Shown here: positions 1 to 53,100 of the stretch, piece by piece
Layout: the number at the start of each line of letters is the position of its first letter
How positions within the stretch are numbered: the first letter of the stretch is position 1
Source: Sipunculus nudus
Taxonomy: Eukaryota; Annelida; Sipuncula; Golfingiida; Sipunculidae
DNA length: 64,000 nt
Assembly: GCA_026874595.1 (NCBI GenBank)
Contig: CM049310.1
Location: 3,596,001 to 3,660,000, forward strand
Direction of reading: 5' to 3'
Notes under the pieces: generated by a model
What the model saw: only the letters and a program-made list of their open reading frames with translations
Databases searched by the model: none
Told to the model about the DNA's origin: nothing
Translations under genes and position numbers: made by a program

Positions 1-575
1 TGGTATACAATTAAATTTTGATTATTGCATAAAATTCGGGGATGGTAGCACCTGCTATTCCTGAGAAATTATGGGTTTATGTACAGATGACCAATGACCC
101 CCGTACAAAAAAGGTCAATGCAGGTGGCGCCACCAAAACATGAATTTCATATATGACTCATGTGACCAACACTGGCATAAAATTTGGTGATGATAGCTCT
201 GGCTGTTTCTGAGATTGTCATTTAAGTATGCTTTTTTGGACAGATCACTAAGTTCAACTTCCTGTAACTCGGCAAAAATTCACCGAACCATTCAAACAAA
301 CTTGAGAGAGATGTTATAAAAGATGATTTCTGTGAAATATTGAACAATTTGGCTTGACCGTTTTGGAGGAGAAGATTTTTAAAGTTTTTTTTAGCTTTTT
401 CTCTGTAAAATCTAAGACAAGGCCTACAGGCCTAATGCGAACCTGTGCAAAGTTTTGGAGTATGAATGGAGGTTTAAAATTTAATATTGATCCTTTTAAG
501 TCCTGCAAATACCTTAGTCATTATGATTTCAGCAAAATGGACATTTCAGACCTGCAAGTTTTAGACTAGGACATT
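1..575 (+). repeat. Repeat family B copy (partial)
   Basis: Matches 1.8-3.2 kb and 45.3-46.3 kb: AGGTCAATGCAGGTGGCGCC, TGACTCATGTGACCAACA, TGTAACTCGGC and AAACTTGAGAGAGAT in the same order. It has a perfect palindrome at 123-134 and no coding capacity. Confidence 0.75.
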
Positions 576-580
576 TTAAA

Positions 581-1341
581 ACTAGAATATGGGTAGTCGA
601 CAAGCGACTATGTGTATCATCAGAAATTAGAGTGGGACGGGTGAAGTGAGGCATGGATTAAGTGGCAAGGGGAATAGAGTGAGGTGTGTTGCATATTAGC
701 ATGGATGTCTGCAGTGTAAACGTGAATGTGGGTGGTGCCACCTGTCATAAAATCGAGAAAATTGTCCAGGATGTATAAACCTGCAAAATTTCAGGTGGAT
801 AAGTCAAACCACTGCTGAGATATGAGTGATTTTATCCCAAGGCAGATGAACAGATGGACGGTGTTCATAATTGGTTGCAGGTGGCGCCACCAGTTTTGCT
901 TATGATGAAAAGCTAAGTGAGATCTATACACAAGCAAAATTTTGGCCGAATCAGTCAAACAGTTCCCGAGATATGAGCTTGGATGTCTGTAGAATAAACG
1001 TGAATGTAGGTGGCGCCACCTGTCATAAATCAAGAAAGCTGTCCAGGATGTATAAACCTGCAAAATTTCAGGTGGATAAGTCAAACCACTGCTGAGATAT
1101 GAGTGATTTTATCCCAAGGCAGATGAACAGATGGATGCTGTGCAAAAATGGTTGCAGGTGGCGTGACCATTTTGAGTGTATGTTATAAAGCTTTCCAAGG
1201 GCTACATTTGTGCAAAATTTTTAGCCTGATCGGTCTAATGGTTCCGGAGATATGCGGGTTTATGTGTGGAAACAGACGCACAAATGGACGATGGGCAGCG
1301 AGGAAAGGTCAGAGGTCAACCAAAAATGAGGGCGCAGCAGT
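581..1341 (+). mobile_element. Repeat family A copy (3'-truncated)
   Basis: Starts with the AACTAGAATATGGGTAGTCG terminus shared with the copies at 5.7, 8.6 and 51.8 kb. Two and a half internal units follow, each carrying the GGTGGCGCCACC palindrome or a variant (perfect at 880-891 and 1009-1020). The right TIR is absent. Confidence 0.75.
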
Positions 1342-1799
1342 TCACATGTGACCTGATGATAAACCTGATTCGCTTAAATGCAATCCAAGTTTTTTCAAAC
1401 AGTTGAAAGATATAGTTCCAATAATCTGGGAATTCTGCATCTAAACATTGTGTCTAGACATCTAGACGCTGTGTCTAGACGTCTAGACACATTGTCTAGA
1501 CATCCCCCCGAGCCAGGTCAGTTGCAATGGTGATGTCTGGACCCCACCTGTTTGTACTGAGTGACCTCTTGACTTGGCTGCTGAAACTCAGCATTTTGTC
1601 AAATCTGTTTTCAAATACAGAAAGCCTTTTTAAATTGGCTACAATGCTTTTTTAAAACTGTATTTACCCAATCTATTCTTATAAAACTGGCAGAACCTTA
1701 CCATAGAATAATTCTTGTAAAGTTTAAACCAATCAGCTTAACAGTTTCATCATAAATCAGTGTATAAGCTAGAAGAGTTTAAAATTACATTTTCGCTTG

Positions 1800-3225
1800 T
1801 AAAAAACACATCAGTGTAGGTGGCGCCACCAATACCTCAAAATCTGATATGACATATGTGACAAACATTGGTATAAAATTTGGTGATTATAGCTCTAGCC
1901 ATTTCTGAGATTTTAATTTTAGTGTGCTTTTTTGGACAGATGACTAAGTTCAACCTCCTGTAACTCGGCCAAAAATCTCTGAACTGGAACCATTCGAACA
2001 AACTTGAGAGAGATTTTTCCAGTGATCATTTCTGTGAAATATTGGACAATTTGGCTGGACACTTTCAGAGAAGAAGATTTTTAAAGGTTTTTAAGCTTTT
2101 TCTCAATAAATCTAAATTAATGCAGATACCCATTAATAAGCTCCAGGGCACCAAGTTTCACATGTGACTAATTCTTACATGTAATTTGGAGCTGCTAGCT
2201 CCAATGGTTTCTGACTTACAGTCATGAACGGTGGAAAGCCATCCCTGGATGGCGGACGGCTGACGACGGATGGACAACGTTGCGCCATCGCATAAGCTCA
2301 CAGGTTCGCTAAAAAAAGGTCAATGTAGATGGCAACACAAAATCTGCAACTTCAAATATGAGTCATGTGACCAACATTTGCACAATATTTGGTAATGCTA
2401 GCTTCTGTCATTTCTGAGATTACTATGTCAGTATGCTTACTTGGCCAAATGACTGTTCAAATTTGTGTAACTCCACTAAAATTCATCAAATGCAAACCAT
2501 TTGAACAAACTTGAGAGGGCTTGCCTCTGGGATCATTTTTGCAAAATATTGAACAATTTGGCTGGATCGTTTACAAGAAGAAGACTTTTTAAAGGTTTTT
2601 CAGCTTTTTCCCTATAAAATCTAAGTAAATGCAGATAGCAAAAAAATAAGCTAAATCCCACAATAATTGATATGTGAATTATCTTGAATAATTAAATCTT
2701 GGGATGGCTGCTCCTGCCATTCCTGAGAAATTATGGGATAATGTACAGATGACCAATGACCCCCGTACAAAAAGGTCAATGCAGGTGGCACCACCAATAA
2801 CTGAATTTCATATATGACTCATGTGACCAACACTGGCATAAAATTTGGTGATGATAGCTTTGGCCGTTTCTGAGACTGTCATTTTAGTGTGCTTTTTTGG
2901 ACAGATGACTAAGTTCAACTTCCTGTAACTCGGCCAAAATTTACCAAACTTGAACCATTCAAACAAACTTGAGAGAGATGGTATAAAAGATTATTTCTGT
3001 GAAATATTGAACAATTTGGCTTGACCATTTCAGAGGAGAAGGTTTTTAAAGTTTTTTTACCTTTTTCTCTATAAAATCTAAGAAAATGCAAAGTTTTTCA
3101 GATGGCTAATTTTTTGCATTAAATTTCATGATGCTAGCTCCAGTCATTTTCAAAATAGTTTGGGTTAACGTACAGACGGCGGACGCCGCCACACCATCGT
3201 ATTAGCTCACAGGTTCGCTAGAAAT
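1800..3225 (+). repeat. Repeat family B, three tandem-like units
   Basis: Units begin near 1,815, 2,320 and 2,770. Two carry the 3' tail CATCG.ATAAGCTCACAGGTTCGCT (ends 2,312 and 3,222). There is a perfect palindrome at 1,819-1,830, and the other units have decayed forms. More diverged material of the same kind continues at 3,530-4,080. Confidence 0.75.
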
Positions 3226-4261: not shown

Positions 4262-4805
4262 GGCACCACCTATATTCTTTTTCAATTTTTATTGCATTTT
4301 TTTCTCTATTTTTGAGACCTTCAGATGTAGCAGTAAGTCTGTTAACAGTGGACTTATTGTAACTGTCAGACCTAGAAAGCTCTAACTATATATTCAGGGA
4401 GGTCAAGAGTGCCAAAAAATCTTCAGCAGTCCCCATGGAAACCTGAAATTAGGTCATGGTGACCTATATTACTGGCCAAAATCATTTTAAGCACCCAGAA
4501 AGTAAGAAATGGTACAAAACTTTTCAATTGGACCTAGAATCTTCTTCTTTGACATCCAGGAATGTCCTTCATAAATGTGCATGGTCATTTTTAGCTCGGC
4601 TGACTGCACACAAGAAGGCTAGATTTCATTGGAATGGCTGGACATATTATCATGAAACTTTTTCTTCTTGTTGTTTTGAAGAACTTTTATTGCTACAGTT
4701 GAATGAGGATGACACCAACAAAGTTTGGCATTCAGATGATAAAAGTCCTTTTGTGAATGTCTTCCTAGTCAGCATAGGGTTATGACCCATGGGTCGCTTG
4801 TTATG
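4262..4805 (-). repeat. Repeat family C remnant, reverse orientation
   Basis: The minus strand carries AAGGTCTCAAAAATAGAGAA and the family's CCATGGGGAC block. At 4,592 the terminus TAGCTCGGCTGACTG appears, and at 4,784-4,797 TGACCCATGGGTCG. The open frame at 4,456-4,785 is repeat sequence, not a gene. Confidence 0.55.
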
Positions 4806-5081: not shown

Positions 5082-8000
5082 CTGAAAAAAAAAAATCAGA
5101 TCAAATAAAACTCACTGTGTTGAGCTCAGTTAATAAAATAACCTGTTTTTTTATTATATTTATAATTTAAAAAAAAAAAATTGTCTGTGCAACTGTGGCT
5201 CATGGGTAGAGCACAGGATTAAAAGCTGGGAGATTCTTAGTTTTGGACTCAGCTGAGGCAGTGAGATTTTTCACAGTCAACCCTCACCCAGGGTGAGTGA
5301 TCTGCAGGCTTAATGGGAAGGCCGTGCCAAACAGCCATGTATACTCACAAACAATTGTGCCTATCAGGGGTTACTCAGTGGTGTGACCCAGGGATGGGGA
5401 TAAATACACGCCAGTAGTCACCGGGCCTGGTTGACTCCAGGATATAAATGAGAGGAAGCATGTGATACTGCCCTGTCATGTAGTCCTAAACCAGATTGGA
5501 ATTATGCAGATGTACATATATGTAGTTAAGTTAGCATTAAAAATTGAGGTGGGTACCTCCATCAAAATATATGAGAAAAAATAACCTGTTTTTTTTAAGT
5601 TAAATTATTACCAAATAACACGCACCTGGTAAAACCTTGGATAAGTAAAATCTATTTTGTGAGACCCTTTGACTTAAACACAACATAATTGTATCCGCCA
5701 AAACAAAGTTTTGCGGATACTATGTTTTTGACCGGGTTCCGCCGCCGCCGCCATCGCCGCCATGTTCGTTTCCAGAGAACCCCTCTGAGACTACTGGACG
5801 GATTTTTCCGAAACTTACACCAATTATTGGGTCAAATGTTAACTGGTGCCTAACCAACTGGCCTTGACCTCTGACCTTTCCTCTCTGCCCAGCGTCCGTT
5901 TGTGTGTCTGTTTCCACACATAAACCTACATATCTCGGGAACTGTTTGATTGATCAGGAAAAAAATTTTGTACAAATGTAGCCCTTGGATAGCTTTATAA
6001 CATCCACAAAAAATGATGGCGCTACCTGCAACCATGTTTGCACAGTGTCCATCTGTTCGTCTGTCTTGGGTTAAAATCACTCATATCTCTGCAGTGGTTT
6101 GACTAATTCACCTGAAATTTTGCATGCGTATACATCCTAGATACCTTTTTGATTTTATGACAGTTGGGGTCACCTACATTCACGTTCACGCTGCAGACAT
6201 CCAAGCTCATATCTCGGGAACCGTTTGACCAATCAGGAAAAAAATATTTACACCAATGTAGCCCTTGGATAGCTTTATAGCGTACACAAAAATGATGGCG
6301 CCACCTGCAGCCATTTTTGCACAGTGTCCATCTGTTTGTCTGCCTTGGGTTAAAATCACTCATATCTCTGCAGTGGTTTGACCAAATTACCTGAAATTCG
6401 GCATGTGTATACATCCTGGATAGCTTTCTTGATTTTATGACAGGTGGCGCCAGCTTCATTTATGTTCATGCTGCAGACATTACCGGTAATGCTTATATCT
6501 CTGGACTCCTTTTGACCAATCAGGGAAAGAATTTTACACAAATGTAGCCCTTGGATATCTTTATAACAAACACAAAAATGGTGGTGCCACCTGCAGCCAT
6601 TTTTGCACAGCGTCCATCTGTTTGTTTGCTGTGGGATGAAATCACTCATATTTCTGCAGTGGTTTGACTTTTCCACCTGAAATTTTGCATGTGCATACAT
6701 CTTGGAGAGTTTTTCGTTCCAATATCAGGTGGCACCAATACAGTCATGTTTACGTGGCAGACATCCATTTTAATATGTAACACATGTAACTCTATTTCCC
6801 CTTGCCACTCTATCCATGCCTCACTTCACCCGTCCCACTCTGATTTTGGCGGATACACGTAGTCGCTTGTCAACTACCCGTATTCTAGTTTTACTGTAGT
6901 TTCACTGAATGGCAATATTTTTTTAATGTTTTAGTATTGTACAAATAAAATATAATGATATGTAACACTAATAGTGGACACTGGTTAGTTCTTTATAATA
7001 ATAAAGACCTGCAAACACATTTTGTTGCAACACCTTTCACAGCAATCTACAAGTGTTGACATTTATTTATTCAGGTACCATTTAAAATTAAAAATATAAG
7101 ACTATCTATTACAATAGGAGCTAAATAGTTAAATAATGAATCCTAACTTGGCCACTGACCCAGGTTTTGCCTTGTTTTCTCTAGCTCAACTGATGTTTGT
7201 ATTCTCTCATATTCAGGCACTGTCTTGTTGTACTGGTCTACCTCCGCCAACATCTGTTTGATCTCATCAGTGGTCGGCCTGCCCTGAAGTATAATGACAT
7301 TAAATTGTACTGCCTTGAAAATACATGCTTTATATCTACCTACACAACTTATGCAGCAGAAGAAGCGTGTTTTCATATGATGAAAATTTCCTGTTTAGAC
7401 ACAATATATCAAAGTAGGCTGCTGTTTAATTATTTGGATCTCCAACCTCTATACAGATGGTACTAGGTATTAGCAGTAGTAGTTGTAGTTTATTATTATT
7501 GTGACATGTACATCATATTTTAACATCCAATCGATATACATACATATTCTAATGTGTACCCAGCCCTCCTGGACTTTTATGTCACCAATTACTTTACCTG
7601 TTAAAATATAGGTTGAAATAACATATATACAGGGAAATTATCATATAAAACCGGATGTGCCTTCTTTATCTAAATAATGTGTTAGTGTGAATGTTCCATT
7701 GGTCACTAATATAACAAGCCATTATTTCGAATTTGTTTTCAATTAAGTATATGAATATTTCTCCATCATTTAAGTGAATAAATTCTAGATTCCTGTAGTT
7801 TATAGCACCATACAACTCTTTCCTCCTTTTTTGAGTAAACAGTGCATTGACAGATAAAATGAACCTCATCCTATACTATTTTACTGTCACAAAGTTCACA
7901 TCTATAGTCTTTCTTCTATTTTCATTTTTCTATACAGCCCTGTCTATGATACCCTAATGTTCTTGAAACACCCAGTTTCTATTTTTAAACATATTATTCC

Positions 8001-11000
8001 ACTCCTTAGTTCAGTTGTGATGGTACAGTACAGATTCAATGCGTATCTCTTCTCACTGCCATTACCAACCCAGTGTACTCAAGCGGGTTGGCACTTGCAC
8101 AAGATCACATTAAAACACGGGTATGTGACGATAGATAATTTTGAGGATAGTTTATTGGTCAAGGCATTTTACTCCATACTGCAATACAGGTGACTGAGTA
8201 CCCTTACCCTACCCTACAGGGAGAGATCAGATATTGCTTTATGTTGTAATATAATAGATCCCTTTGACACCTCCGCACAAAAGAAAAATGGCTTCTCCCC
8301 TGGTCCATGTCCCATCTTTCCACATAGCTTTGTGGGATTTGGTCCAGTAATTTAATTCAGTATTGATTATAAACAAACCAACAAACAAACATGAGTGAAA
8401 ACATAACCTTCTACAAGGAAGTTAGATATAATAACAAGTGACCCATGGGTCATGACGCTCAGCTGACTGGGAAGAGATTCACAAAAGGAAATTTTATCAT
8501 CAGATGGTAGATACCCATTCAACTGAAGCATCAAACAGAGTAACCAACAGGCCAAGATTTAGTCTGTATTTATATATCTGAAAAATAGAGAAAAAATGTG
8601 TAAACTTTAAAAACTAGAATACGGGTAGCCGACAAGTGACTACGTGTATCTGCCAAAATCAGAGTGGAACGGGTGAAGTGAGGCATGGATTGAGTGGAAA
8701 GGGGAAACAGAGTGAGGTATGTTGCATATTAGCATGGATGTCTGCAGCCTAAATGTGTATGTAGGTTGTGCAACCTACCACAAATCCAGAAAGCTGTCCA
8801 AGTTGAATACATATGCAAAATTTTAGGCAGAAAAGTCAAACCACTACATAGATATGAGTGATTTTAGCCCACGGCAGACAAACAGACAGACGCTGTGCAA
8901 AAATGGTTGCAGTTTTGTGTATGATTAAGACCTATGTGAGATCTAAACACAAGCACAATTTTGGCCCAATCGGTCAAATGGTTCCTGAGATATTAGCTTG
9001 GAAGTGGGCAGCGTTAACTAGAATGTAGGTGGCGCCACCAGTCATAAAATCAAGAAAGCTATCCAGGATGTATAAACCTGCAAAATTTTAGGCAGTTATG
9101 TCAAACCACTACAGAGAAATGAGTGATTTTAGGCCACGGCAGACAAACAGACAGACGCTGTGCAAAATGTGCAAAAATGGTTGCAGGTGGCCCCTCCAGT
9201 TTTGTGTATGATAAAGACCTATGTGAGATCTATACACATGCAAAATTTTGGCCCAAGCATTCAAACGGTTCCTGAGATATGAGCTTGGATGTCATCAGCG
9301 TGAACGTGAATGTAGGTGGTGCCACCTGTCATAAAATCAAGAAAGCTATCCAGGATGTATAAAACTGCAAAATTTTAGGCAGATATGTCAAACCACTTCC
9401 AAGATATGAGTGACATTATCGCACGGCAGACTAACAGACAGACGCTGTGCAAAAATAGTTGCAGGTGGCGCCACCAGTTTAGCGTATGATAAAGAGCTAT
9501 GTTAGATCTATACACATGCAAAATTTTGGCCCGATCGGTCAAACGGTTCCCGAAATATGAGCTTGGATGTCATCAGCGTGAATGAGAATGTAGGTGGCGC
9601 CACCTGTCATAAAATCAAGAAAGCTATCCAGGATGTATAAGCATGCCGAATTTCAGGTGAATTAGTCAATTCAATGCAGAGATATGAGTGATTTTAACCA
9701 AAGCCAGATGAACAGATGGACACTGTGCAAACATGGTTACAGGTGGCGCCACCATTTTTTGTGTATGTTATAGAGCTATCCAAGGGCTACATTAGTATAA
9801 ATTTTATTTCCTGATCAGTCAAACGGTTCCCGAGATATGAGCTTGGAAAGCTCATAAAATCAAGTCCCAGAGGAGCTCTCTGGAAACGAAAGCGGCAACG
9901 GCGGAGGAACCCGGTCAAAAACATAGTATCCACAAAACTTTATTTCGGCGGGTACAAAAATACAGGTGGCTCCACCAGTCTGCAGAAACTAATAAAAACA
10001 CTTACAAACATCAATATCCATGCAAAGAATCATGGTGATCTCCCCATTAGTTGTTCAGATACTTCAGCTTTTGTATCAAATTGTCCATTATTCTGAGGGA
10101 TACTTCCGAGTCCTATAGCTTGAAGGATATGGGTAACAGAGACCTAATTTTAAGTTTCCACAGGCACTTTTCATGGGCCTCCTTGCATGACAAGAATGAA
10201 GATTCTAGGTCCAGTTGTTGCGATTTGTACCCTGTTGACAGATAACCACATCTTTAAAGGTATCATAAAAAGAGAAAAAAAATCGTAAAAATTTGAAAAA
10301 AATAGAGGTGGCGCACCCAGTCTGCAGAAACTGATGGAACAGGTCATGATCAATATGTATGCCGAAAATCATGACCATCAGTGTTGTAGTTATTGAGATA
10401 CTGCAGTTTTTGTATCAAATTTTCCATTATTCTGGGGGGTAATTTGGAGCCATACAGCTTAAAGAATATGGGTAACAGAGTCCTAATTTCAGGTTTCCAT
10501 GGAGACTTTTCATGGGTCTCCCTGTGTGTCAACAATGAAGATTCTAGGTCCAGTTTTAATGATTTGTGCCCTGTTAACAGATGTTCATAACTTTAAAGGT
10601 CTCAAAAATAGAGAAAAAATTCGTAAAAAAACCCGAACAAATACAGGTGGTGCCACCAGTCTGCAGAAACTGATGAAACACTCCATGATCAATATCCATG
10701 AAAAAAATTATGGTGATCTCTGCATTAGTTGTTCAGATACTTCAGCTTTTGTATCAAATTTTCCATTATTCTGAGCTGTACTTTGGAGTGCCATAGCTCA
10801 AAGGATATGGGTAACAGAGACCTAATTTCAGGTGTCCATGGAGACTTATCATGGGTCTCCCTGTGTGTCAACAATGAAGATTCTAGGTCCAGTCCTTACG
10901 ATTTGTACCCTGTTGACAGATAACTACATCCTGAAAGGTCTCAAAAAAAGAGAATAAAAAATTGTGAAAATTTGAAAAAATACAGGTGGCACCACCAGTC

Positions 11001-14000
11001 TGCAGGTACTGATGAAACACCTCTTGATCAATATGTATGCCAAAAATCATGACCATCAGTGTTGTAGTTATTGAGATGTTGCAGTTTGTTTTTATCAAAT
11101 TTTCCATTATTCTGGGGGGTTATTGGGAGCCCCCCATAGCTCAAAGGATATGGGTAACAGAGACCTTATTTCAGGTTTCCATGGAGACTTTTTATGGACC
11201 TCTCAGTGTGTCGAGAATGAAGATTCTAGGTCCAGTCTTTATGATTTGTGCCCTGTTAACAGCTGTTCACATTTTTAAATTCGTAAAAAATCGAAAAATT
11301 CAGGTGGCGCCACCAGTCTGCAGGAAGTGATGGAACATCTCATGATCAATAAGTATGCCAAAAATCATGACCATCAGTCAAGTAGTTAATGAGATATTGA
11401 AGTTTTTGTATGAATTTTTTTACTTTTCTGGGGGGTACTTTGGGGCCCCATAGCTCGAAGGATATGGGTAACAGAGATCTAATTTATGGTTTCCATGGAG
11501 ACTTTTAATAGGTTTCTCAGTGTGTCGAGAATGAAGATTCCAGGTCCAGCAGTTACGATTTGTGCCACGTTAACAGATGACAGCATCTTTAAACGTCTCA
11601 AAAATTGAAGAAAAAATTGTAAAAAAATTGAAAAATACAGGTGGCACCACCAGTCTGCAGGAACTTATGGAACATCTCATGATCAATATGTATGCCAAAA
11701 ACCATGACCGTCAGTGTTGTAGTTATTGAGATATTGAAGTTTTTGTATGAAATTTTTTACTATTCTGGGGGGTACTTTGGGACCCCATAGCTCAAAGGAT
11801 ATGGGTAACAGAGACCTAATTTCTGGTTTCCAAAGAGATTTTTCATGGACCTCTCAGTGTATCAGTATTAAGATTCTAGGTCCAGTCTTTAAGATTTGTG
11901 CCCTGTTAACAGATGTTCACATTTTTAAAGGTCTCAAAAACAGAGAAAAAAATTTGTAAAAAATAAAAAAATACAGGTGGCGCCACCAGTCTGCAGGAAG
12001 TGATGGAACATCTCATGATCAATATGTATGCCAAAAATCATGACCATCAGTCAAGTAGTTAATGAGATATTGAAGTTTTTGTATGAAATTTTTGACTTTT
12101 CAGGGGGGTACTTTGGGGCCCCATAGCTCGAAGGATATGGGTAACAGAGACCTAATTTCTGGTTTCCAAGGAGATTTTTCATGGACCTCTCAGAATCCCA
12201 AGTTACAAGGTTCTAGGTTCAGCGGTTACTATTTGTGCCTGGTTAACTGACGGACAGACGGACAGACGGACGATGGACAAAGAGTGATCGCTATAGCTCA
12301 GATGACTTTCAGTCAGCTGAGCTAAAAATATTGTAAGATAATACAAAATATTATAAAGAAAATACAGAATACATTTGCTTGACAGAGAAACAAGATGAAA
12401 TAGACAAGTAACTAGGACAGAGAAACAAGATGAAATAGACAAGTAACTAGGACAGAGAAACAAGATGAAATAGACAAGTAACTAGGACAGAGAAACAAGA
12501 TGAAATAGACAAGTAACTATGACAGAGAAACAAGATGAACTAGACAAGTAACCAGGACAGAGAAACAAGATGATGTAGACAAGTAACTAGGACAGAGAAA
12601 CAAGATGAAATAGACAAGTAACTAGGACAGAGAAACAAGATGAAATAGACCAGTAACTATGGATGAAATAGACAAGTAACTAGGACAGAGAAACAAGATG
12701 AAATAGACAAGTAACTAGGACAGAGAAACAAGATGAAATAGACAAGTAACTAGGACAGAGAAACAAGATGAAATAGACAAGTAACTAGGACAGAGAAACA
12801 AGATGAAATAGACAAGTAACTAGGACAGAGAAACAAGATGAAAGAGACAAGTAACCAGGACAGAGAAACAAGATGAAGTAGACAAGTAACCAGGACAGAG
12901 AAACAAGATGAAGTAGACAAGTAACTAGGACAGAGAAACAAGATGAAATAGACCAGTAACTAGGACAGAGAAACAAGATGAAATAGACCAGTAACTAGGA
13001 CAGAGAAACAAGATGAAATAGACAAGTAACTAGGACAGAGAAACAAGATGAAATAGACAAGTAACTATGACAGAGAAACAAGATGAAATAGACAAGTAAC
13101 CAGAACAGAGAAACAAGATGAAATAGACAAGTAACCAGGACAGAGAAACAAGATGAAATAGACAAGTAACTAGGACAGAGAAACAAGATGAAATAGACAA
13201 GTAACTAGGACAGAGAAACAAGATGAATTAGACAAGTAACTAGGACAGAGAAACAAGATGAAATAGACCAGTAACTAGGACAGAGAAACAAGATGAAATA
13301 GACCAGTAACTAGGACAGAGAAACAAGATGAAATAGACCAGTAACTAGGACAGAGAAACAAGATGAAATAGACCAGTAACTAGGACAGAGAAACAAGATG
13401 AAATAGACAAGTAAATAGGACAGAGAAACAAGATGAAATAGACAAGTAACTAGGACAGAGAAACAAGATGAAATAGACCAGTAACTAGGAAAGAGAAACA
13501 AGATGAAATAGACCAGTAACTAGGACAGAGAAACAAGATGAAATAGACAAGTAACTAGGACAGAGAAACAAGATGAAATAGACAAGTAACTAGGACAGAG
13601 AAACAAGATGAAATAGACCGGTAACTAGGACAGAGAAACAAGATGAAATAGACCAGTAACTAGAACAGAGAAACGAGATGAAATAAACCAGTAACTAGGA
13701 CAGAGAAACGAGATGAAATAGACCAGTAACTAGGACTGAGAAACGAGATGAAATAGACCAGTAACTAGGACAGAGAAACGAGATGAAATAGACCAGTAAC
13801 TAGGACAGACAAACAAGATGAAATAGACCAGTAACTAGGACAGAGAAACAAGATGAAAGAGACAAGTAACTAGGACAGAGAAACAAGATGAAATAGACAA
13901 GCTACTGAGCTGAGCTAAAAATATTGTAAGATAATACAAAATATTATAAAGAAAATACAGAATACATTTGCTTGACAGAGAAACAAGATGAAATAGACAA

Positions 14001-26801: not shown

Positions 26802-26854
26802 AATTTTTATGAACCCAATTTACTCTTGGTTATCCAGCACATGGCGAAATCAAC

Positions 26855-27101
26855 ATGGCAGCTTCCAGTGAAGAAAACATGGAACACAACGAGGATTATT
26901 CAGACACCGAGATGACAATAGAGGAGAGTGAGACAGTGACACCAACAAACCCGAAAAAGAAAGGGAAAAAGAAAGTACCAGTTGCCGGTGTGGTATACCT
27001 CAGCAGAATCCCAGCGTGTATGAACGTGAAGAAAATCCGGGAAGTCTTTGGCCAGTATGGGGAAGTGGGTCGAGTGTTCTTACAACCCGACACCAAAACT
27101 G
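26855..27101 (+). CDS. ABT1: ABT1 exon 1
   Basis: Starts at the ATG with A at -3 and G at +4. It encodes 82 residues plus one base and ends at ACTG|GTAAGA. The apparent extension to 27,211 in the same frame is intron read-through. Confidence 0.92.
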
Positions 27102-29169: not shown

Positions 29170-30689
29170 AACATTTGAAACTTTGTTTGTTTGGTTTGCT
29201 CAGATTGACTGATTAACAAATCCTATATCTAGAAAATACTAACTTGTTATCAAGACAGGCTGGTGAAATCTCCATGGAAACAAAATATTAAGTTATAAAT
29301 TGTTGGGCAGTTTGCACATTTTATCCTTTGTACATGCAAATGTGAGAATAGTCAATTAACAGGGTTTCTGCAGGTTTTTAAAAATGTGGAAAGCCATGTA
29401 ATTTAAAACATCAAGGCCCTGAAAGTCTGAGAAATTTTGATTCACCCACAGGTCCTGGAAATTTTGCATGCACAGTTAAATTTGTCATTAAGAAGGTAGA
29501 ATAAATGTACACATTTCTTGTATGCTTAACAGGCCTTGCACACTGCAAAATGTTGCCATACATGTGTGCAAGTCTGTTGATTGAAACATAACCATGTGTC
29601 TCACATTTGCATATCCACAAAGCCAAGGTTGAAAATGTCATGAATCACAACTGACTATGACTTTTTGTGACTGGTTTCAGCGGTTTTGCACCTTGAGCCA
29701 AACAAATTTCCAGGAGTATTCAAGAACTTTCTGGGACAGTCATATTGGTTGTGTGGAACTTGCTAGTAGTAAGGATTCATGTCTCGTTACAATCATATAT
29801 TTGTGATATGTTATCAGAAAGACAAAGTTAAAATTGACTGATTTTTAACCCAAATTTGGCAGTCTTGTTTTGAGGGTGAAGTTGATTATTTATCTTCTTG
29901 TGTGATGTTACTCAAGTCTAAAAATGTTCATGTTAGGAAAGTTGGAAGACTACACAAGATGTCGCAAAACAGTCACCTTAGTTAGGAATGCAACTTGCTT
30001 ATCATTGGAACACACTTTGAATAAACCCCTACCCCCTCTTGTATAATAGACCTGCACATGGATTGGATTGGAGCCATGTACAGATACGAATGGTTCAATA
30101 TGAGAAGCATTGAGGCAACTAGACTGGTGCTGCCATCTGTCAAATGGAATATATGAAACATTTCATAGTTTCTTAAGGCCCACTTGAAAATAGGAAACTG
30201 GTTTCAGTTTAGGAAAGATCAGTTCTGTATGGTTTCTCCTTGTATTTATAAGTGTACAGTTTTGGTTTTAATAGAAAAATTATGATGACATAAATTATTA
30301 AATATAATTGAATTAATGATGAGAATATTATCAAAAGTTAAGGGTTATGCCTGGACACTTTGAGACCAAGTGAGAGCATTATTAAATTGTGACTGGCCAA
30401 TTTATATTGCAATTATGATGAAAATAGACTGTTTCTCTGTGTCCTATGACATATTCATGTGTCAGAAGATGTGCACACAGGATACGTGCTTCTCAGCTTT
30501 AGCAATACAGAGGTCAGCTCCCTAGGCAGCGAAAATCTTGCGCTTCTAAAGAAGCTACTGAATTTGAGATATAGGTAGTACGCCTAAAGGTAAAGAGCTA
30601 AGTGAAGAGAGTGATACAGGGTTTAAGTAGTAAATATTGAATTCAAAACACTTTCGAAAGATTGTTTATACCTCAATCATTGCTAATTA
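29170..30689. other. Intergenic, no recognisable feature
   Basis: AT-rich, with only short frames. The stretch 29,360-29,480 has a repeat-like look (GTTTCTGCAGGTTTTTAAAA), but I could not match it to another copy in the window. Confidence 0.5.
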
Positions 30690-31900
30690 GTCCCCCGCTG
30701 TAAGAGGGAGGACTACTTAAATGGACAGCTTCCTTCTGGCTGTCGTTCAGTCCGGCAGTCTGTCGGTCCGTCACGCCCCATTCTTTTACCACATTTCTCT
30801 AAGACCCTTTCTGCTTTCATCACCAAATTTTACACACTCAGCACATGACTGACATTGGATTATCACTGCAGGTGGCGTCACCTCTGTTTAATGACTTTCT
30901 GTGCTCGAAAATGGTCTTTTTCACTTTTGTTCAGACAAGTCGGTTAATAAGAACACTTTAGCCTTCAAATCATATGCAAGGATTCCTTGGAAATCATTGT
31001 ATACTATATCCAACAGAATTATTTTCAGACTGATGTTTCCACAAAGTTCAAATTTTGGTGATCACGAAATTTGCTGATTTCTCTTCAGTCCGTCCATCCC
31101 GCCCATTCTTCAACTACATTTGAATTTCTCTAAGAACCTTGCTGCTCTTTTCAACAAATTTCAGCACGACTCACATTAGATTATCACCTGCAGGTGGCGC
31201 CAACTTTGTTTACTGACTTTCTGTGCTCCAAAATGGTCCTATTCATGTTCGTTCACATAAGTCCGTAAATAAGAACAATTTAGCATTCAAATCATATGCA
31301 AGGATTCCTTGGAGCTATTTGAATTCAATGAATACTATATTGAATAGAATTATTTCCACACTGTTTCCACTGGTGTTCAAATTTTGGTGATTGCAAAATT
31401 CTCTGATTTCCCTTCAGTGTGTCCATCCCCCTTTTCTTTTACCACATTTCTCTAGGACCTTTGCTGCTCTCTTCACCAAATTTTACACATTTACTCAGCA
31501 CATGACTGACATGTGATTATCAACTGCAGCTGGCACCACCTCTGTTTAACGACTTTCTGTGCTCCAAAATGTTTTCTGTTTTAGTTTCCCTTAGAAAAGT
31601 CAGTAAATTAGAACACTAGCCTTGAAATCATATGCAAGGATTCCTTAGGCTAATTGAATTCAATGAATATTTTATTGAAAAGAATTATTAGATATATTGA
31701 TCGCATACATAAGACAGGTGGCGCCACTGATATTCATTTTGCAAGCCTGCTCTTCTTGTTTAGTTGCATTAATATTTAATTGAAAAGAATTATTAGATAA
31801 ATTGATCGCATACATAAGACAGGTGGCGCCACTGATATTCATTTTGCAAGCCTGCTCTTCTTGTTTAGTTGCATTCATTACATAAGACAGCTAAATCCAT
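30690..31900 (+). repeat. Repeat family D, tandem ~320-bp units
   Basis: Three units share TCTCTAAGACC, CACCAAATTT, CTTTCTGTGCTCCAAAATGG, TAAGTCCGTAAATAAGAACA and CAAATCATATGCAAGGATTC. Each has a palindrome relative (TGCAGGTGGCGTCACC, TGCAGGTGGCGCCAAC, TGCAGCTGGCACCACC). It ends in a 105-bp direct duplication at 31,674-31,875, each half with AGGTGGCGCCA. Confidence 0.7.
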
Positions 31901-43238: not shown

Positions 43239-46200
43239 GAATAAAACTCATCAATTTAATTACATATAACAGTTTTGATATTACGGTATTTAAAAGCTTA
43301 ATTCTAACTAGGGACCCATGGGTCTCAATGCTCAGCTGATTTTGTTTATGGGGATATTTTAATGAGCTTTTTCAAAATGTGGGTGCTGTGACTTTGACCT
43401 TGTGACTCAAAATCCATAAGTTTCTTCTGCTATCGGCAGGTGAGCAATGTGTGGAAGATGGAAGATTTGGGATGAAATGTTTGATTTATGATACATCCAC
43501 AATCTTTTTATAGATATGGGGCCCATGACCTTCACCTTTGGACTTGTGACCCGAAATCAAAATGATTCATACATTAGTAGTGGGCCATTAATATATAAAA
43601 TTTGAATTTAGTCTTCGGAAAAATGAAAAAAAAAACAAGTCATGGTCAATAAACATATGAGGTTTCAGGGCATTGGTGAAACAATAGATGAGAATCTGAC
43701 ACCTTGCTATATTTTGGTAGTCTTCAGATAATATGAAAAAAATAAGTGAAAAATTTAAAAAATACAGCTGGTGCCACCACTCTTCCAAAAGTAAAGAAAC
43801 TAGTCATGATCAATATTCAAGGCAAGATTCATTGCAATCCATGCATTAATTATTGAGATACAGGAGAATTTTTTTATCAAATTTTAATTATTCTGGGGTG
43901 CCCAAGCAGGTCCCATAAGTCAGAGAATATAGGTCGCAGTGACCTAATTTAAGGTTTCCAAGGAGATTTTTCAAGGAACACCCTGGATGTTAAGTAAGAG
44001 GTTTCTAGGTCTAATGGTCATGATTTGTGCCCTAGTAACACTCCGATGGACAGACAGACAGACAGATTTTAAGATGGACAACAGATAAAGAGTGATCGCT
44101 ATAGCTTAGATGACTTTCAGTTAGCTGAGCTAAGAATATATTATAAAAGTACATGTATAATACAAGGCATGAAGATGGCACATTAAACTCTTACCCATAT
44201 GAATACCGTCATAATTAATAACATATATGAACAACACTTATCATTTGTTTAAGTGCTACTAATATGAGAAAGGAAAAAAAAACATTTTTGTTTTGTTTCA
44301 ATAAGAATGTTTTAAAACAAAGCCTACAGGCCTATCACAAACTTGTGCATGGGATATACAAGAGGTATAATGCTTCCATGTTGGACCGTTACTTTTCAAG
44401 TACATATGTGACATGTATATGTACAATGCAACTTTCACAAGTACTTAGCATATTGAACCCAATTCCAAGCAACAATAACACATACATCACTGCTCAAATA
44501 CTGGCATGGATGCACACAATAAAATAATTGTAGGTGGCTCCACGAGTCTCGGGTATGAGAAAGCCATCAAATATGTATGGACATGCAAAACTTTAGGCCT
44601 TGACCTGTTGCCTAATCTGATACAGTTGGCAGTCTGCAAAAGCTATAAATTGATCCAGACTGACCTTTGGCCTGTTGCCAAATCTGAAATAGTTTGAAAT
44701 ATGCAAAGCTATTTATAGATAAAGATACAATCTTGACCTGTTGGTAAATCTGTTTACACATACTGAAAGACTTCTGCAAAAAAAAAATGTTTTTTTTTTT
44801 TCAAGCTGACATATTCATAAGATTTTTTATCAAAATGTTTAGAATAATAACAGATGCCTATTGAAAGCAAAAGATACAGATATATTTTATTCATGGATTT
44901 ATCTTACACCTAAGCTGGATAAGGACACCAAATATTTGTGTTGCCTTTTTTTTTTATCAAAATGTTTAGCTTTGCTTACCAAAGTATCTCTCAGTCTTTT
45001 CATTGTTTAAAGGCCCAATTATTCTGCCAAAATCATTTAGGTAAACTTGAACAAAGGCCACCTAAGAATAATTTTTGTTAAATGTCACAAAAGTTGTAAA
45101 AACAGTTTTGCAGAAGGAAACTATAGCAGCCCTCAGTTTGAAATAGGCATACTAATGGCCACAAGACCAACTTCAGCTTTCTTTGACTCTACCAAAAATC
45201 AATGTACCCAATCTTTTCTTATACAATTAAAAGAACCCTACCAAAGAATAATTCTTGTGAAAAATTAAACCATTCAGCTAGACAGTTCCACCAGAATAAA
45301 TTTATAAGCTGAAAAAGGCTAAAATTACAAGGTTTTTGCTCGTAAAAAATAGGTTTATGTAGGTGGTGCCAAAACACTGCAATTTCAAATACAAGTCATG
45401 TGACCATCATTTGCAAAAAACTTGGTAATGCAAGCTCCTGTTGTTTCTGAGATTGTTATGTTAGTAGGCTTACTTGCCCAAATGACAAAGTACAAATTCC
45501 TGTAAATCGGCCAAAATTCATCAAACCCAAACCTATTGAACAAACTTGAAAGAGCCACCTCCGGGATCATTTCTATGAAATATTGAACAATATAGCGAAT
45601 ATATGATTTTAGAGAAGAAGATTTTCAAAGATTATCAAGCTTTTTCCCCGTAAAATGTAAGTTGATGCAGGTTGCGCCACAAAACACTCAATCCCACAAC
45701 ATTTGATATCGTATGTGACAGTTTTTTGCATAAAATTTTGGGATGCTAGGTCCCGCTATTCCTGAGAAATTATGGGTTTATGTACTGATGGCTGAAGACC
45801 ACCATACAAAAATGGCTGATGCAGGTGGCACCACCAATACTTCAATTTCAAATATGACTCATGTGACCAACATTTGCATAAAATTTTGTGATGAGAGCTC
45901 CAGCTGTTTCTGTTTCATACTGTAATTTCAGTATGCTTTTTTGAAGAAATGACTGTTCAGCTTCCTGTAACTCAGCCAAAAATCACCAAACTGGAACCAT
46001 TCGAACAAATTTGAGAAAGATTAATTCAGGGATTATTTCTGTGAATTATTGAAAAATTTTGCTGGATAATTTTGGAGAAGAAGACTTTTAAAGTTTTTTT
46101 AGCTTTTTCCCTAAAAGTCTAAGTTAATGCAGATAGCAAAAAAATAAGCAAAATTCCAAAGTTTTTTGGATAACTGATTTTTTGCATAACATTTGGTGAT

Positions 46201-47077
46201 GCAAGCTCTGCCGTTTTTGAGACAGAATAGGTTTATTTAAATGTACAGACAATGGATGACGCCACACCATCCAATAAGCTCACAGGTTCACTTAAAATAA
46301 GAGCTAGAATATAAACCATTGCCAAAATGGCTCCTGTAATAGTAGATATGATATTTATGAGTATTTTAATCTATACAATGCGTGTTTGTATTTATACACC
46401 TTCTTGCAATTTAAGAGGTTAATTAGTTCAGCTTGGTAAAATACTAATATTATTGATAATAATATGGTATTATATGGTATACAACCAAAAGTATTAATTT
46501 GCTGTGTTGGTAATAATGTAGTAATATATGGTATAAAACCAAAAGTGCTTGCTGTGATTGTAATATAAAGTTTAACTATGAATTTATTGTGGCAGTGGAA
46601 GTAATAAGTTCCTTTAACTTGTTAAACAGGCTCAGCAATTATTACAACAATACCTCGATCCTACAATCAAACTACTACATATGTTATACATGTAATTACA
46701 GGGATATATTTCAATATATGACATGGGTGCTGTAAGAAAGATATAATGAGAATTATATAGCTACCATTAAGTGATTTGTAAAAATCAAGTAAAAATACAA
46801 AACATTCATCCAGATCTTACTTGGTTTGTACCAGGTCCTATTAAATCATGCAGTGTATGTCATCAAAAGACTGATGGTCTTGACCAGTGAAAGATCAAAT
46901 TCTAATGGTTATTTTATTGCTGTAAATGACAAATGCACTGATGCGAAGCAATGATAAGCAGTGTGCTGCTAATGTTCATTTGCATTACATGCAATGTTTA
47001 ACTTAGGGGACAATTACATTAATATTTAACATAAATCATGCTGCCCTGGAAAGGTTATGATCAGTCTCTCCTAATCT

Positions 47078-47118
<41 letters not shown>

Positions 47119-50100
47119 TCCTTGAATTTGAACAATCATTCCATGTTAAGGTACATAAAACACAACATACAGATAGTACATGGATTTCAGATAATTATTG
47201 TATTTACTGTCAGTACTTGCACTTGGAATGTTTATATAAAGGTGGTACCAATAAACATAATATAAAGTTTTTTTAAATACTCTGGTTTTACAAACATAAA
47301 CTAAACAACATACTTTAAAATTCCATTATAAGTACTATCATTATATCTTTCAAACTCCTTTTTCTGTTCACTTTTCAAATGGGATCAAAAGTTTCTCATG
47401 AAATATATCAGAAAAAATATGATGAAATAGGAACCGAGGATATCAAAATATTAAACCTACTAAATGTACAACCACCTTAGGAACAGGAATCATCATTGAG
47501 GGATAAATATTACAATGATTACCATTCTTATGACATATATTAACCTGTATGTTTTGTCTGCTTATCTGTGGATGATAGTAATCTGCCAGTAATAGGAGAG
47601 TGTCCCAATAGGAGATGTGTCTTTAAACTCAGGTTTTTCTGTGCATGTATTGAATCTGTAATATGTCACTAAACTTGAGTCATATTAATATATTTTGATT
47701 TTCCACAAGTGTAGGAGCTATGTATGTTAAATGTTTCTATTTCTCCTATATACTAATAAATGGGATCACAAGTGATCAATTACATATTTGGAATTATCCA
47801 AAAACATAGTAAAACAGGACCTGCATTGATGCGTTGACAGTACATAGGAACAATTTATAAAACCATCATGCAACATTGAATCATCATTTAGGGAAGCTTA
47901 AACGGACAGATATTACGCTGATCACCATACTTATGGTAACTCATGCATGGTGTATAAAGCACATAGACAAAAAAACATGAAGTACAGCGTCACCCACAAA
48001 CACTCCCAGATTCATTAACGCCAATCTTCCTTGCATCATACCTGGCTTAGAAAAGCTTACCACTTTGAATCCGTAATCAGACATGCGTGTAAACACGCAC
48101 AAAGTGAAGGTGGGAGACTTACTGATAAAACCAACTAAATGACTACTGATATGGAATCAGAAGCTTTATAGTTCAGACCGCCAGCCAGGTGGGCGATATA
48201 TTAAAATGATTCATAAAGATTATCCAGATTGTATCATGTGCCTATTACCAAATGAAAGGGACATAAACACTGATACTGTCTTATCCAAGAAACTCACCAC
48301 AAGGAAAAAAGAAAAGCCTTTGTGTTTGGTACATTCCATGCACTGTGTAGAGATGAATCACAAATGCTTTTGGCTAGATCTGAAAGTTCATACTTAGCCC
48401 AGCAACACTGTATAAGGTTACATCAGGAAATATAAATGCAGGTCAATAATTCTTTGTTTGAATACTTGTCTAACTAAAACTCAATTATAGTTAAGTTTTA
48501 TAACACTGATCAAGGCAATTAAAGTGATCTCAAAAAGGGGATGCATTTCAAGATAAGTATGTTTTTATTTTATTCAATCACACCTGTCAACAAGATTTTT
48601 TTTTCTATATTTATTATTCAAATCTATTAAGTTATGAAATTCACAACAGACAGCAGCTATAACAAAAAGGCCTCATTTTTGGTAAATAACAAATCTGCAT
48701 TGAAATATTAATGGGGTTTGTCCTGACCCATGTTTCAACCCTCCACAAAGATTTATGCAAAGCTTTCAGTAGCTTTTACATAATCCTGCTAACTATTGTA
48801 TAGACCTTAACAAACAAACACAGTTGAAGACTGAACCTTCATGGCATAGGTAACAAGAATCATTCTATTTCTTAAAATTTAATATGAGGGATATAAGAGT
48901 AACTGGTGTTGTGGTAATTTTAATTACCTCAACTTTAATAACTGAATGAACAGCACCTATTAATATATCCTTACAGGAGGAGCTGAAAAGAGGGCAGGTA
49001 GCTACAAAGGGAACAGTGCTATTTTCAAGGCCTTAAAATTATAAGTTTTAAATTTAAGTAATTTCAATGTCTTCCAAGAACCCTGGATATTTGTTTGGAG
49101 GCATTTACAATTACAGCCCAATAAAATGGAGTCACTATAAGTAGGCAGACTTTGGAATTTGTCCAATCAACCTCAAGCACTATTTTCATTATGTAACCAT
49201 TTATAAAACCATAATATCAGTCCAGTCATGAACTAGATCTGGTCCCTAATAAACCTGAAACTTTATGTAATCAACCTCAAAGTAATACTCAAACCTTCTC
49301 CATGCATGCATGGATACTTTTTTAAAAAAATTTAATGCTTGATGCATACAATGAAAGAAGATTTTTTAATAAGTTTATATTATCCTGCCATTCCAATAAA
49401 GATTTAATCTTTTTTGAGCAATTGTGATCTGAAGAAGCACATCTTGTGAATGTCCTTTTTCACCTTAACTAAAGGCAGTGACACCTTGTGGCAAATATAT
49501 GAACTATATCATGAAATGTATGTCATACTATATTTTATTAGAATAAAACTGATGTAAACAAACTAACATAAGGTTCTACACAGAACATATACAGTTACTT
49601 TAGTGATAAACAAAGATGCAGTCTATACAACAAACTTGAACTGACATCATGCATTCATTCTCTTTGTTTGTGCTGTCACAAATACTTAAAATCTCTCATT
49701 TTATTATTTATTTTTCTCTCTTGTTGTTTCTCTCTCACAGTTGCAATAATACCATCTACTTTTTACTTAACTCCCAGAGAAGGTTATGCTCTCATCTGTG
49801 TCTGTTTATTTGTTTGTTTGTCTGTTTGTCAGCCAGATTTCACAAGCACAATTGAATTGCCTGCCAAGAAACTTAATCAATGTATGGGATATGGGGTCCA
49901 GATTGGTCAATTAAATTTGGTGAAGGTCTAGATAAAGGGTAGATACACTGTGAAGGTTTGTTTTGCCTTGGCAGAGGTATGCGCTCTACTGAGCCCCCCC
50001 CCCCCCCCCATCCCTCCAGTGTCTGTATTGAGCATGAACACACACACATACACACCTTACTATATATAACCATTAGAGTACTAGGTCCCCCTCTCTTCCA

Positions 50101-53100
50101 AAGCCTCACACTTTGAGTCTGTAATGAGCATGAACACATATACACACACTCTACCTTATTATATATAACCAATATAATACTAGCGCCCCCCCCCCCTCCT
50201 CCCATATATTAGGATTGTTTTGGCTTGGCAGACTCTACTGAGCACCAGCCATCCCCCTACCCCTCATCCCTCAAAAGCTGTGTTGAGCATGAATGAACAC
50301 ACACACACCACCTTTCTTTATGTAACCAGCCATGCCCCCTTCATCCCTCGAGTGTTTGTATTGAGCATGAACCCACACACACATACACACACTCCACCTT
50401 ATTATATACAAGGAACCCATGGGTCCAGCTCTCAGCTGTTAATTATGATCATAAAATATGATTTGGAAGAAGTGGAAGACAAATGTTTGTTTTGTGTGGT
50501 AAAATATAAGCTGATTTATGAGGATGATGGCGTTTAACTCAAGTTATGTAAAGATTTGGATAACATCCTTGGAGAGGGAAGAGGGCTGATGTCTTTAAAT
50601 TATTTACATTTGGAAAAGGAGTGCTATTGTCACACAGGTTTTGACTTGGCCTAATAACTTTATCTACATTGCAGCAAAAGTATTTGAAAAAAATGTCCAC
50701 TATAAGTCATGTTAATTATCATGCTTTATACAAAGGAGATAACTGTAATACAATAATTACAGGTTACCTATACCCAAGAGTAGCACTAGCACAAATGATA
50801 AAAGAGTTTAACTATTTATTAAAAATAAATTGCAACTATTGGGCCAAACATAATTTTAATTAAAAAATACTAATAGTATCATCTGAAAAGATATTTTAAA
50901 ATAATATAATTGAAATGACTATAAAAAATAATATTATAAATGTATTCATAATACATTCATGGATACATTTTAAAGGTATTTGCACTTGCATTCAAAAACT
51001 TTCTTTTTACCTGTATTAGTATTTGTATTCATTTTGATGATGGAACTATTGAATATTTGTATTCATATTCAAATACAATTATAAAGTATTAACTCAATGT
51101 CTCTTATTTATACAATTTCAGTCAAATGGAACTATTGAGATTCCAGGATATACATATTTCACAAATTTAAATAATAATCAAAAGAACCTAGTTTTACTGC
51201 ACTAATTTATAGGGGCACAATCACCTATAAAGCATGTTGAGTAAATATGAAAAATAGCTTCTCCCATTTGAAATAAATTAAAAATATAAAATATTACCCT
51301 GCAACCGTTTGCTTACTCCTGCAAACGAATGTTAAAAAAAGTGGACAGGGCGCAATCCCAGGTGTAAACATAAACACAGCACGTGCATCACCGGGCCACA
51401 ATATGTGTCAAATCAGGAGATTCCCTGACTGACCAGATAAAAAATATGATACATGTTCCTGCTGGCTGAAACATCGCATATTCTGGCTCACAATCGGACT
51501 TCCGGTCATGGGTCCTTGTTAAGGTTAACATACACATGGACTGTGTTTACCAACTTGCAGAGCAATAACAAGGTGTTTAACAGCCGTATGCGAGGTACTG
51601 AGACTGTGTGCTTGGATGGATTTGCTGGTAAACTTTTCTATGAAGCAAAACTTTACTGCTAGTGTGAAACAGTAGGCAAAATATTGCTCCTGATTATGTC
51701 CCTTTAAAAAAAAACTATTATATTAACCTTTGTATACTGTCACATCACTGTCTACACACTAAACATAGCAAGACACTTATGACAACTAGAATACGGGTAG
51801 TCTACAAGTGACTATGTGTGTCCCCCAATACCAGAGTGGGATAGATGAAGTGAGGCATGGAATGAGTTGCAAGGGGAAATAGAGAGAGGTGTGTTGAATA
51901 TTAGCATCGACGTCTGCAGCCTGAATGTGAATGTAGGTGGCCCCATCTGCCACAAAATCGAGAAAGCTATCCAAGATGTATATACATGCAAAATATTAGG
52001 CAGATAAGTCAAACCAATGCCGAGATATGAGTGTTTTATCCCATGGCAGACAAACAGACGGTAGCTGTGCAAAAATGGTTGCAGGTGGCGCCACCAGTTT
52101 TGCATATGATAAAGAGCTATATGATCTATATACATGCAAAATTTCATGAGGATACATCACACAGGTCCTTAGATAAAAGCCTGGATGTCTGCAGCCTGAA
52201 CATAAAAGTAGGTTGCGCAACCTGCCACAAGATCGAGAAAGCTACCCAAGATGTATATACATGCAAAATTTTAGGCAGGTAAGTTTAACCACTGCCGAGA
52301 TATGAGTGATTTTATGCCATGGCAGACAAACAGATGAACGCTGTGCAAAAATGGTTGCAGGTGGGGCCATCAGTTTTGTGTATAATAAAAAGCTATGTGA
52401 GATCAATACACATGCAAAATTTCAGAAGGATACATATAAGCCTGGATATCTGCAGCCTGAATGGAATGTATGTGGTGCCACCTGTCATAACCTGAGTTGG
52501 GCATGTTAAATTTTATTAACTGAAACAAAGGAATCAGTACTATAAATTTTGATTATTTACCTAGTATCATGTAACAGCTGAAACAGCCACGAGTCTAAAT
52601 ATTGACATATTTAATGAACACATGTCTGAGTAATATTTAAAATTTTTGAGATATTTCAATTTTTGTTTAAATTTTGTAATAAATATAAACCAACAAATTA
52701 AAAACCTGGAAAAGACCTGGAAATTTTTATTAATTTTATATAATCAACTGCATCCTTGTCTATCATTGATTTGCTTCATATAATCCCTAATAGTAAATAA
52801 TTTTATTTAATTATTTATTTTACATTTTCATGATTGAAATGAAAAATACCCAATGGTGACTGCATGGTGTCATTTGGAATACATTTTTTCGGCCATCCAT
52901 GGAAGATCCATAAAACATCAGTAATTGCAAGGTAATTCCCTGTTACTCCTTAACCATGAAATTCCTTTTCTATCCATTTTTCTTAAAGCTGTTTTTATAA
53001 ACCAATATATTTTTTTTTAATTAATGTTTATTGTTATGTTTTTGACCATAACAACTACTGTAGGATATCCGGACGGAGGTTGGACAGTTAGATCCTGGTG

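Follow-up and report, generated by a model that had tools for sequence, protein, structure and literature searches.

The genome of Sipunculus nudus (GCA_026874595.1) contains, in a stretch of 64,000 nucleotides (C5:3,596,001-3,660,000; hereafter, the window), many copies of a perfect 12-bp palindrome, GGTGGCGCCACC, which we call P. They lie in repeat units of five families (A1, A2, C, D, and E), carried by elements of the Helitron/Helentron kind. An earlier note on this DNA had listed 11 exact copies and many near-forms, and had proposed that P is either an ancestral core kept by selection or a CTCF-like site spread by mobile repeats. All 11 exact copies are present, and near-forms are indeed plentiful, with 39 sites at up to two mismatches vs. 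a mean of 0.45 and a maximum of 3 in 100 dinucleotide shuffles. The reading that we prefer, with a probability of about 0.58, takes P for a conserved box in the monomers of Helitron/Helentron elements, with the constraint lying at the level of the element that spreads.

Palindrome P, its carriers, and its module

The sites of P in the window, two of them within the 14-bp perfect palindrome AGGTGGCGCCACCT, are the following:

123..134, no strand: exact P, family E
880..891, no strand: exact P, family A2 half-unit
1008..1021, no strand: exact P (at 1009) within AGGTGGCGCCACCT, family A1 half-unit
1819..1830, no strand: exact P, family E
9028..9039, no strand: exact P, family A1
9464..9475, no strand: exact P, family A2
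9592..9605, no strand: exact P (at 9593) within the same 14-bp palindrome, family A1
9742..9753, no strand: exact P, family A2
11303..11314, no strand: exact P, family C
11976..11987, no strand: exact P, family C
52084..52095, no strand: exact P, family A2
8764..8775, no strand: symmetric variant GGTTGTGCAACC, with its counterpart GGTTGCGCAACC at 52211-52222
31666..31875, plus strand: direct duplication of 105 bp, with GGTGGCGCCACT in both copies (31717, 31822); Q box (see below) not seen by eye

The symmetric variant could have been taken for a compensatory change (GGTTGYGCAACC at 8764 and 52211), but this is the sole symmetric double change, found in 2 of 39 units and probably a single event, and we made no use of it.

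The genome comprises 1,426,538,692 bases, in 17 sequences of 61-111 Mb (C1-C17) and two below 0.1 Mb (C18 and C19); the chromosome number is probably 17. The genome-wide count that the earlier note had called for gives 111,729 exact copies of P, compared with 14 for the reversed-pattern control and about 7 expected from base composition. At about 112,000 copies in several mobile families, P is an unusually clear conserved box in satellite-like monomers. Allowing one mismatch raises the count to 218,178 (control 575), and a strict pattern of A plus P followed 34-58 bases on by GCAAAATTT is found 21,480 times (control 0). Two loci on C1 show one-change copies of P at the regular spacing of large tandem units, every ~10.4 kb at G000:C1:3704382-3756281 and every ~9.76 kb at G000:C1:63712755-63742048. 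Two P-spacer-box patterns gave 0 matches among viral contigs; among genome contigs, one bacterial record matched, but its flanks lack the module by eye and we took the match as chance. In open-licence full text, the 12-mer appears only in an unrelated endochitinase context, a search of the text proper that leaves room for a description in figures or supplements; the string AGGTGGCGC, which P contains on both strands, turns up in 120 papers there.

Carriers of P include HINE-type Helentron and Helitron-like elements, which are marked below by their subterminal inverted repeats (subTIR), inverted repeats, palindromes, and GTCY microsatellites:

582..1319, minus strand: A-type Helitron-like element H1; 3' end CTAG at 582; A1/A2 units; 5' boundary at about 1319, by eye
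5864..6888, plus strand: A-type element H2; 3' end CTAG at 6885-6888; modules on the minus strand
8614..9850, minus strand: A-type element H3, flanked by the ends of the family C HINE; truncated at the 5' side, limit approximate
51786..52490, minus strand: A-type element H4; truncated at the 5' side, limit approximate
8439..12323, minus strand: family C HINE; right palindrome TGACCCATGGGTCA at 8439-8452, subTIR at 8456-8467; GTCY microsatellite at 12252-12271; inverted repeat and left subTIR at 12295-12323
43312..44131, minus strand: second family C HINE, probable; left subTIR and inverted repeat at 44103-44131; right-end-like palindrome at 43312-43325 (2 mismatches); decayed P at 43767
2295..2310, minus strand: family E left-end-like motif AGCTCACAGGTTCGCT, also at 3204-3219 and, with one change, at 46277-46292
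30689..31689, plus strand: family D element; left end AGTCCCCCGCTG...GGACT; GTCY microsatellite at 30758-30769; module on the minus strand

The four A-type copies are alike up to CTAG and divergent beyond it, with a 19-nt palindrome lying 11 nt inside that is degenerate in some copies and folds exceptionally in one of the four; such an end has the form of the canonical Helitron 3' end (CTRR with a palindrome of 16-20 nt), and a T follows it in all four copies. The canonical 5' TC with insertion between A and T was not seen in the A-type copies, two of which have TTGACC as their common 5' boundary. In the family C HINE, the left subTIR GTCAGCTGAGCT (12312) and the inverted repeat AGCTCAGATGAC (12295) are complementary at 11 of 12 positions, the microsatellite GGACAGACGGACAGACGGAC, at 12252 on the plus strand, reads as GTCY on the minus strand, and the right end combines a subTIR matching at 11 of 12 positions (8456) with the palindrome at 8439, all features of a HINE; this right end would belong to the same element across the nested H3. 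Its P-bearing units, of 336-339 bp, span 9956-12193. P-like sites mark the three units of the family D element, at 30871, 31193, and 31529, and both D and E show HINE-like left ends (30689; 2295, 3204, and 46277), whereas their right ends were not identified. Two further stretches, 40271-41432 (which also has a right-end-like palindrome) and near 53740-53912, carry the family C left subTIR with no P and at most a weak Q-like match (E-value ~1-6); P is thus not universal in HINE-type elements.

In all five families of the window, P begins a module of about 95 bp that contains a second box, Q (TGCAAAATTT...GAGATATG), some 40-85 bp downstream; a complete example is this one:

1009..1105, plus strand: A1 module with P, spacer, and Q box (TGCAAAATTT and GAGATATG)

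An A precedes P, in module direction, in 37 of the 39 window units. The P-to-Q direction runs opposite to that of the element in those elements that could be oriented, and the family D module (30871-31529) lies on the opposite strand. The families had been thought to share little other than P; for these five, this view has to be dropped, with support for the common module that ranges from strong to weak depending on the pair. With P masked, downstream profiles of one family detect others at offsets from P of mostly 0-3 bases (D finds three E units, E-values 0.002-0.004; C finds A2, 0.006; A2 finds E, 0.02), among many weaker matches both on and off P. Profile-profile scores without P were equalled by only 0-2 of 150 block shuffles in eight of the 10 family pairs, the unconvincing pairs being C-D (14 of 150) and A1-D (48 of 150). 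Pairwise alignment of single consensuses without P is weaker, with only A1-A2 and E-D beating all 500 shuffles, and we set it aside as a kinship test too weak for most pairs, in favor of profiles. Across the five consensuses, from families picked for holding P, AGGTGGCGCCACC is common in 13 of 13 columns, compared with 12 other invariant columns (119 gap-free columns). A 339-bp satellite known only from the genome sample (L021, G000:C12:5000001-5010000) has the same layout on the minus strand and, by eye, bridges the families: P is followed by CATGATCAATAT as in C and by GAAATTTG...TTTCTAAGATAT as in E and A. In this array, intact GGTGGCGCCACC is interspersed with GATGGCGCTAGC variants.

Divergence in P and in the rest of the unit

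To measure conservation, units were sought with models of the downstream part only, P itself playing no role in the search. These models, trained on window units, were run on the window and on 18 loci chosen by a fixed, non-random scheme (at 5.0 Mb on C1-C17 and at 25 Mb on C1), yielding 117 module matches, 111 of them assessable. The sample is clumped, since its 44 exact P copies, found in seven of the 18 loci, compare with about 14 expected from the genome average; 32 of the 44 are inside modules of families A, C, and E and 12 outside. The best match to P in the 111 modules has no mismatch in 43 cases, one in 33, two in 19, three in 7, and at least four in 9. Leaving out the six non-assessable matches, seven modules in which P was lost (more than 5 mismatches), and one without flanks, 103 units were kept.

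At non-CpG sites, divergence from the family consensus is 6.0% in P (62/1030) vs. 14.1% in the rest (1703/12105); the earlier note's null case, in which P decays like the rest of its unit, does not describe the sample. The ratio of P to the rest is 0.51, 0.40, 0.32, and 0.42 in the four families, with bootstrap upper bounds of 0.60-0.74, and CpG sites are divergent in 38/206 cases in P and 182/610 elsewhere. Few non-P windows are conserved as well as P (3/101, 8/99, 3/105, and 10/103); the best of them are GAGATATG and TGCAAAATTT in A1, TTCCCGAGATAT in A2, and AAAATTTGGT and GCCGTTTCTGAG in E, all within Q, as well as ATGATCAATA in C.

The deficit lies in the changes that units share. Shared changes affect 4.2% of sites in P (43/1030), 9.1% in Q (261/2865), and 12.2% in the rest (1123/9172), whereas private changes number 19/1030, 67/2865, and 225/9172, respectively. 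The odds ratio of P vs. the rest is thus 0.31 for shared changes (Fisher p ~1e-17, for units that are non-independent) and 0.75 for private ones (p 0.28). A bootstrap over 21 clusters, against all non-P non-CpG sites, gives 0.36 (0.25-0.48) for shared and 0.76 (0.46-1.11) for private changes, the shared ratio being the lower in 0.995 of replicates. When binning bias is removed by a split-half design, the ratio of the distance in P to that in the rest declines as pairs become more distant (1.32, 0.95, 0.67, 0.59, 0.49, and 0.40). Genome-wide, CpG transitions make up 45,683 of the 106,449 one-change copies of P, which fits resident copies that decay freely. As the deficit concerns shared and not clearly private changes, it points to selection on the spreading element and not to upkeep of resident sites; the idea of an ancestral core kept by selection stands as far as constraint goes, but does not seem to describe what happens to copies in place. 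This shared/private split offers a means to separate element-level from host-level selection.

The left and right halves of P vary alike in 102 units (4 and 7, 8 and 9, 3 and 4, 6 and 8, 4 and 3, and, at CpG, 18 and 18 changes). Single-strand DNA folding of four P sites is unexceptional (z from -1.57 to 0.24), which favors a site used as duplex; a hairpin or structured-RNA role was rejected on this ground, and no Rfam family reaches its gathering score in the window.

One has to weigh against source-level constraint a number of observations. The window is itself among the sources of units and supplied those on which the models were trained, units of one array are non-independent (hence the 21 clusters), and both dropping the seven P-lost modules and taking the best P match within 8 bases slightly favor P. 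In the window units alone, picked by P, divergence in P (30/390 vs. 629/4430) is below average but unexceptional, with 11-106 of 110-117 windows at least as conserved, and family D has above-average divergence in P. The private ratio comes from 19 changes, and its interval permits weak constraint. Q overall is only mildly constrained (shared changes at 9.1% of sites). Neither box needs the other everywhere, since Q modules occur without P (E-type at 2125, 2642, 3064, and 46132, plus one deletion of P near 8911) and exact P occurs without Q, by eye, at 4307 and 5230 of sample locus L025. Finally, biased gene conversion could mimic source-level constraint.

Explanations for the constraint on P

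According to the reading that we prefer, several families of non-autonomous Helitron/Helentron elements carry, and spread through the genome, tandem monomers with a two-box module, P and Q at near-fixed spacing, in which P would be under the strongest constraint. P would be preserved in the lineages that yield new copies, while the decay of a landed copy would proceed at a rate close to the ordinary one. This is most likely because P acts as a duplex, dyad-symmetric protein-binding site aiding propagation of the element or array; it might, for example, recruit a host DNA-binding protein, for which CTCF is one candidate and another dimeric or zinc-finger factor is equally possible.

In mammals, short interspersed elements are known to spread CTCF sites, with binding measured there. 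The resemblance is that mobile repeats take a CTCF-like core to many places; here, however, the core is read from sequence, it is palindromic, and its carriers are DNA elements with tandem units. That P is a CTCF core site readable both ways, by which the elements seed insulator-like or accessibility sites genome-wide, is a tentative proposal that we hold at clearly less than even odds. In its favor, AGGTGGCGC lies on both strands of P, just as the earlier note had it, and at C11:67037578-67038510 the species encodes an ortholog of CTCF (finger identity 56%, E-value 4.9e-109, 373 bits vs. 198 for the next best match) whose best PDB match is a chain named CTCF (7w1m, E-value 6e-109). The contact positions of fingers 3, 4, and 5 of the ortholog are identical to the human ones; finger 7 keeps R and D, whereas finger 6 differs at 3 of 4 contacts. 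CTCF reads the core AGRKGGCGC with these fingers. This core has 17 matches at the P units of the window and two more at the P-like sites 31717 and 31822, compared with 0-1 matches in five simulations. The A before P agrees with it, and so does the excess of G-to-A changes at position 2 (genome-wide counts by position pair: 5,506 at 1/12, 9,525 at 2/11, 4,607 at 4/9, and 3,798 at 5/8), where the core has R. Position 3 is only a weak fit to K (T-to-G 1,876, T-to-A 1,486, and T-to-C 1,013, the last vs. a control of 269), T-to-C being no fair yardstick since it creates CpG. Several points stand against CTCF: the longer consensus CCASYAGRKGGCRS, at 12 or more of 14 positions, matches 3 P sites and 9 places elsewhere in the window (1-11 in five simulations); constraint is equal in both halves, whereas one CTCF needs one half; and copies lose CpG freely. 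The two 9-bp half-sites also overlap at the center and could hardly be filled together, so the paired, opposed sites that had been imagined are unlikely, and P would be a single site of free orientation. Of the proposal that mobile repeats spread CTCF-core sites, then, the core and the matching fingers hold up, while the longer consensus shows no enrichment; CTCF is a putative binder, and its binding a reasonable hypothesis for P as judged from sequence. It is a good deal more speculative, and in our view unlikely, that Helitron/Helentron arrays exploit CTCF through a palindromic core bindable either way, gaining a chromatin or replication advantage and turning more than 100,000 orientation-free cores into a binding landscape made by mobile elements and a large CTCF sink.

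The symmetric constraint would also suit a dimer, and TGGCGCCA, the core of E2F-like sites, lies within P; the agreement of the full E2F palindrome TTTGGCGCCAAA with P is, however, limited to 8 of 12 positions, and every P site stays below 10. Another C2H2 zinc-finger protein might do as well: the CTCF query has 320 matches in the genome, those listed being many on C16 and others on C7, C9, and C11, and these listed matches indicate a large expansion of C2H2 zinc-finger genes. A repressor would predict loss, not retention, of its site in spreading lineages, and on balance we find such another factor rather doubtful. Scarcely better is the prospect that P is a recombination or replication hot spot, whose palindrome promotes changes in array length or template switching, a role reportedly suggested for the DTC84 palindrome of a Donax element. 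Two breakpoints speak for it: an A2 unit near 8911 (~8900-8918) lacks the 12-bp palindrome and one A with both flanks kept, a near-exact deletion, and in sample locus L010, near 769, an A-type unit breaks off a short way past P and continues into a HINE right end (GGACCCATGGGTCAC and subTIR). P has, however, no loop and folds weakly, the arrays of H1 and H2 have, by eye, their 5' limit at Q and their 3' limit some 40 bp away from P, and in the BIV160/Cg170 satellites, junctions are not significantly linked to the conserved motifs (PMC5139131). The least probable of the alternatives is that P has no function and reflects common monomer descent in families first chosen for holding it. Although P is not the best-conserved stretch in the window's own families, and 3-10 of 99-105 non-P windows equal it in the sample, this account is already strained, as P still has 0.32-0.51 of the average divergence in units that were chosen through nothing but their downstream part, and the shared-change deficit holds up in the cluster bootstrap.

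With P as a conserved box of spreading monomers, the closest known kind, by analogy, is that of bivalve HINE and satellite monomers with two conserved motifs. The Cg_HINE elements of Crassostrea gigas are non-autonomous Helentrons with a left subTIR, an inverted repeat, a GTCY-type microsatellite in several, a right subTIR with palindrome, and a central satellite-like array of fixed orientation relative to the ends; monomers of clusters CL1, 2, 10, 13, and CL4 have two conserved segments in common, CL4 being otherwise unlike (PMC7492417). Ends and central array resemble those of the P/Q carriers, and the conserved segments, compared by description only, may correspond to P and Q; the oyster monomers average 140-180 bp (PMC7492417), however, whereas ours measure 129/149 bp (A half-units) and 322-339 bp (C and D). 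The BIV160/Cg170 satellites of bivalves likewise have two well-conserved motifs and monomers inside Helitron-type elements, and DTC84, one of the pearl/DTC84 elements, has a conserved palindrome near the repeat junction; here, too, the motifs were set against P and Q by description only (PMC5139131). For the pair of conserved motifs long noted in bivalve satellite monomers, P and Q may suggest a function open to testing. As for the DINE-1/HINE and canonical Helitron plans (PMC4067079), family C ends fit the former and the A-type ends, with CTAG and, 11 nt inside, the 19-nt palindrome, the latter, but the A-type lacks a clear 5' TC, and in neither class is the terminal palindrome the same as the internal P.

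If CTCF does bind P, the influence of mobile DNA on genome folding could be tested in this species, in a part of the animal kingdom other than vertebrates and flies for which few data are available. In the open chromatin of an annelid, a CTCF motif is the commonest, and spiralian 3D data are few (PMC10658182). In echinoderms, CTCF motifs are enriched at domain boundaries, where they have no preferred orientation and the enrichment is lower than in zebrafish; they are not enriched at loop anchors (PMC13317027).

Other features of the window

At 26813-29069 on the plus strand, two exon-like open frames occur; searched against the PDB, the first hits Ribosome biogenesis protein 15 (E-value 6.4e-5), and it presumably resembles ABT1, while the second gives nothing at 0.001. 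Six open frames gave 0 Pfam matches. A 35-bp minisatellite of about 91-99 copies fills 12381-15830, broken by AAAATATTATAAAGAAAATAC segments (AAAATATTATAAAGAAAATAC at 12325, 13918, and 15331), and a 54-bp one of about 27 copies, at 18545-20345, contains on the minus strand a 497-codon frame whose openness probably reflects nothing more than a period divisible by three. Further minisatellites lie at 33434-34277 (31 bp), 37161-37893 (31 bp), and 38095-39356 (32/48 bp), and a 22-bp perfect palindrome, TGTGTCTAGACGTCTAGACACA, is found at 1470-1491 within a 21-bp tandem repeat.

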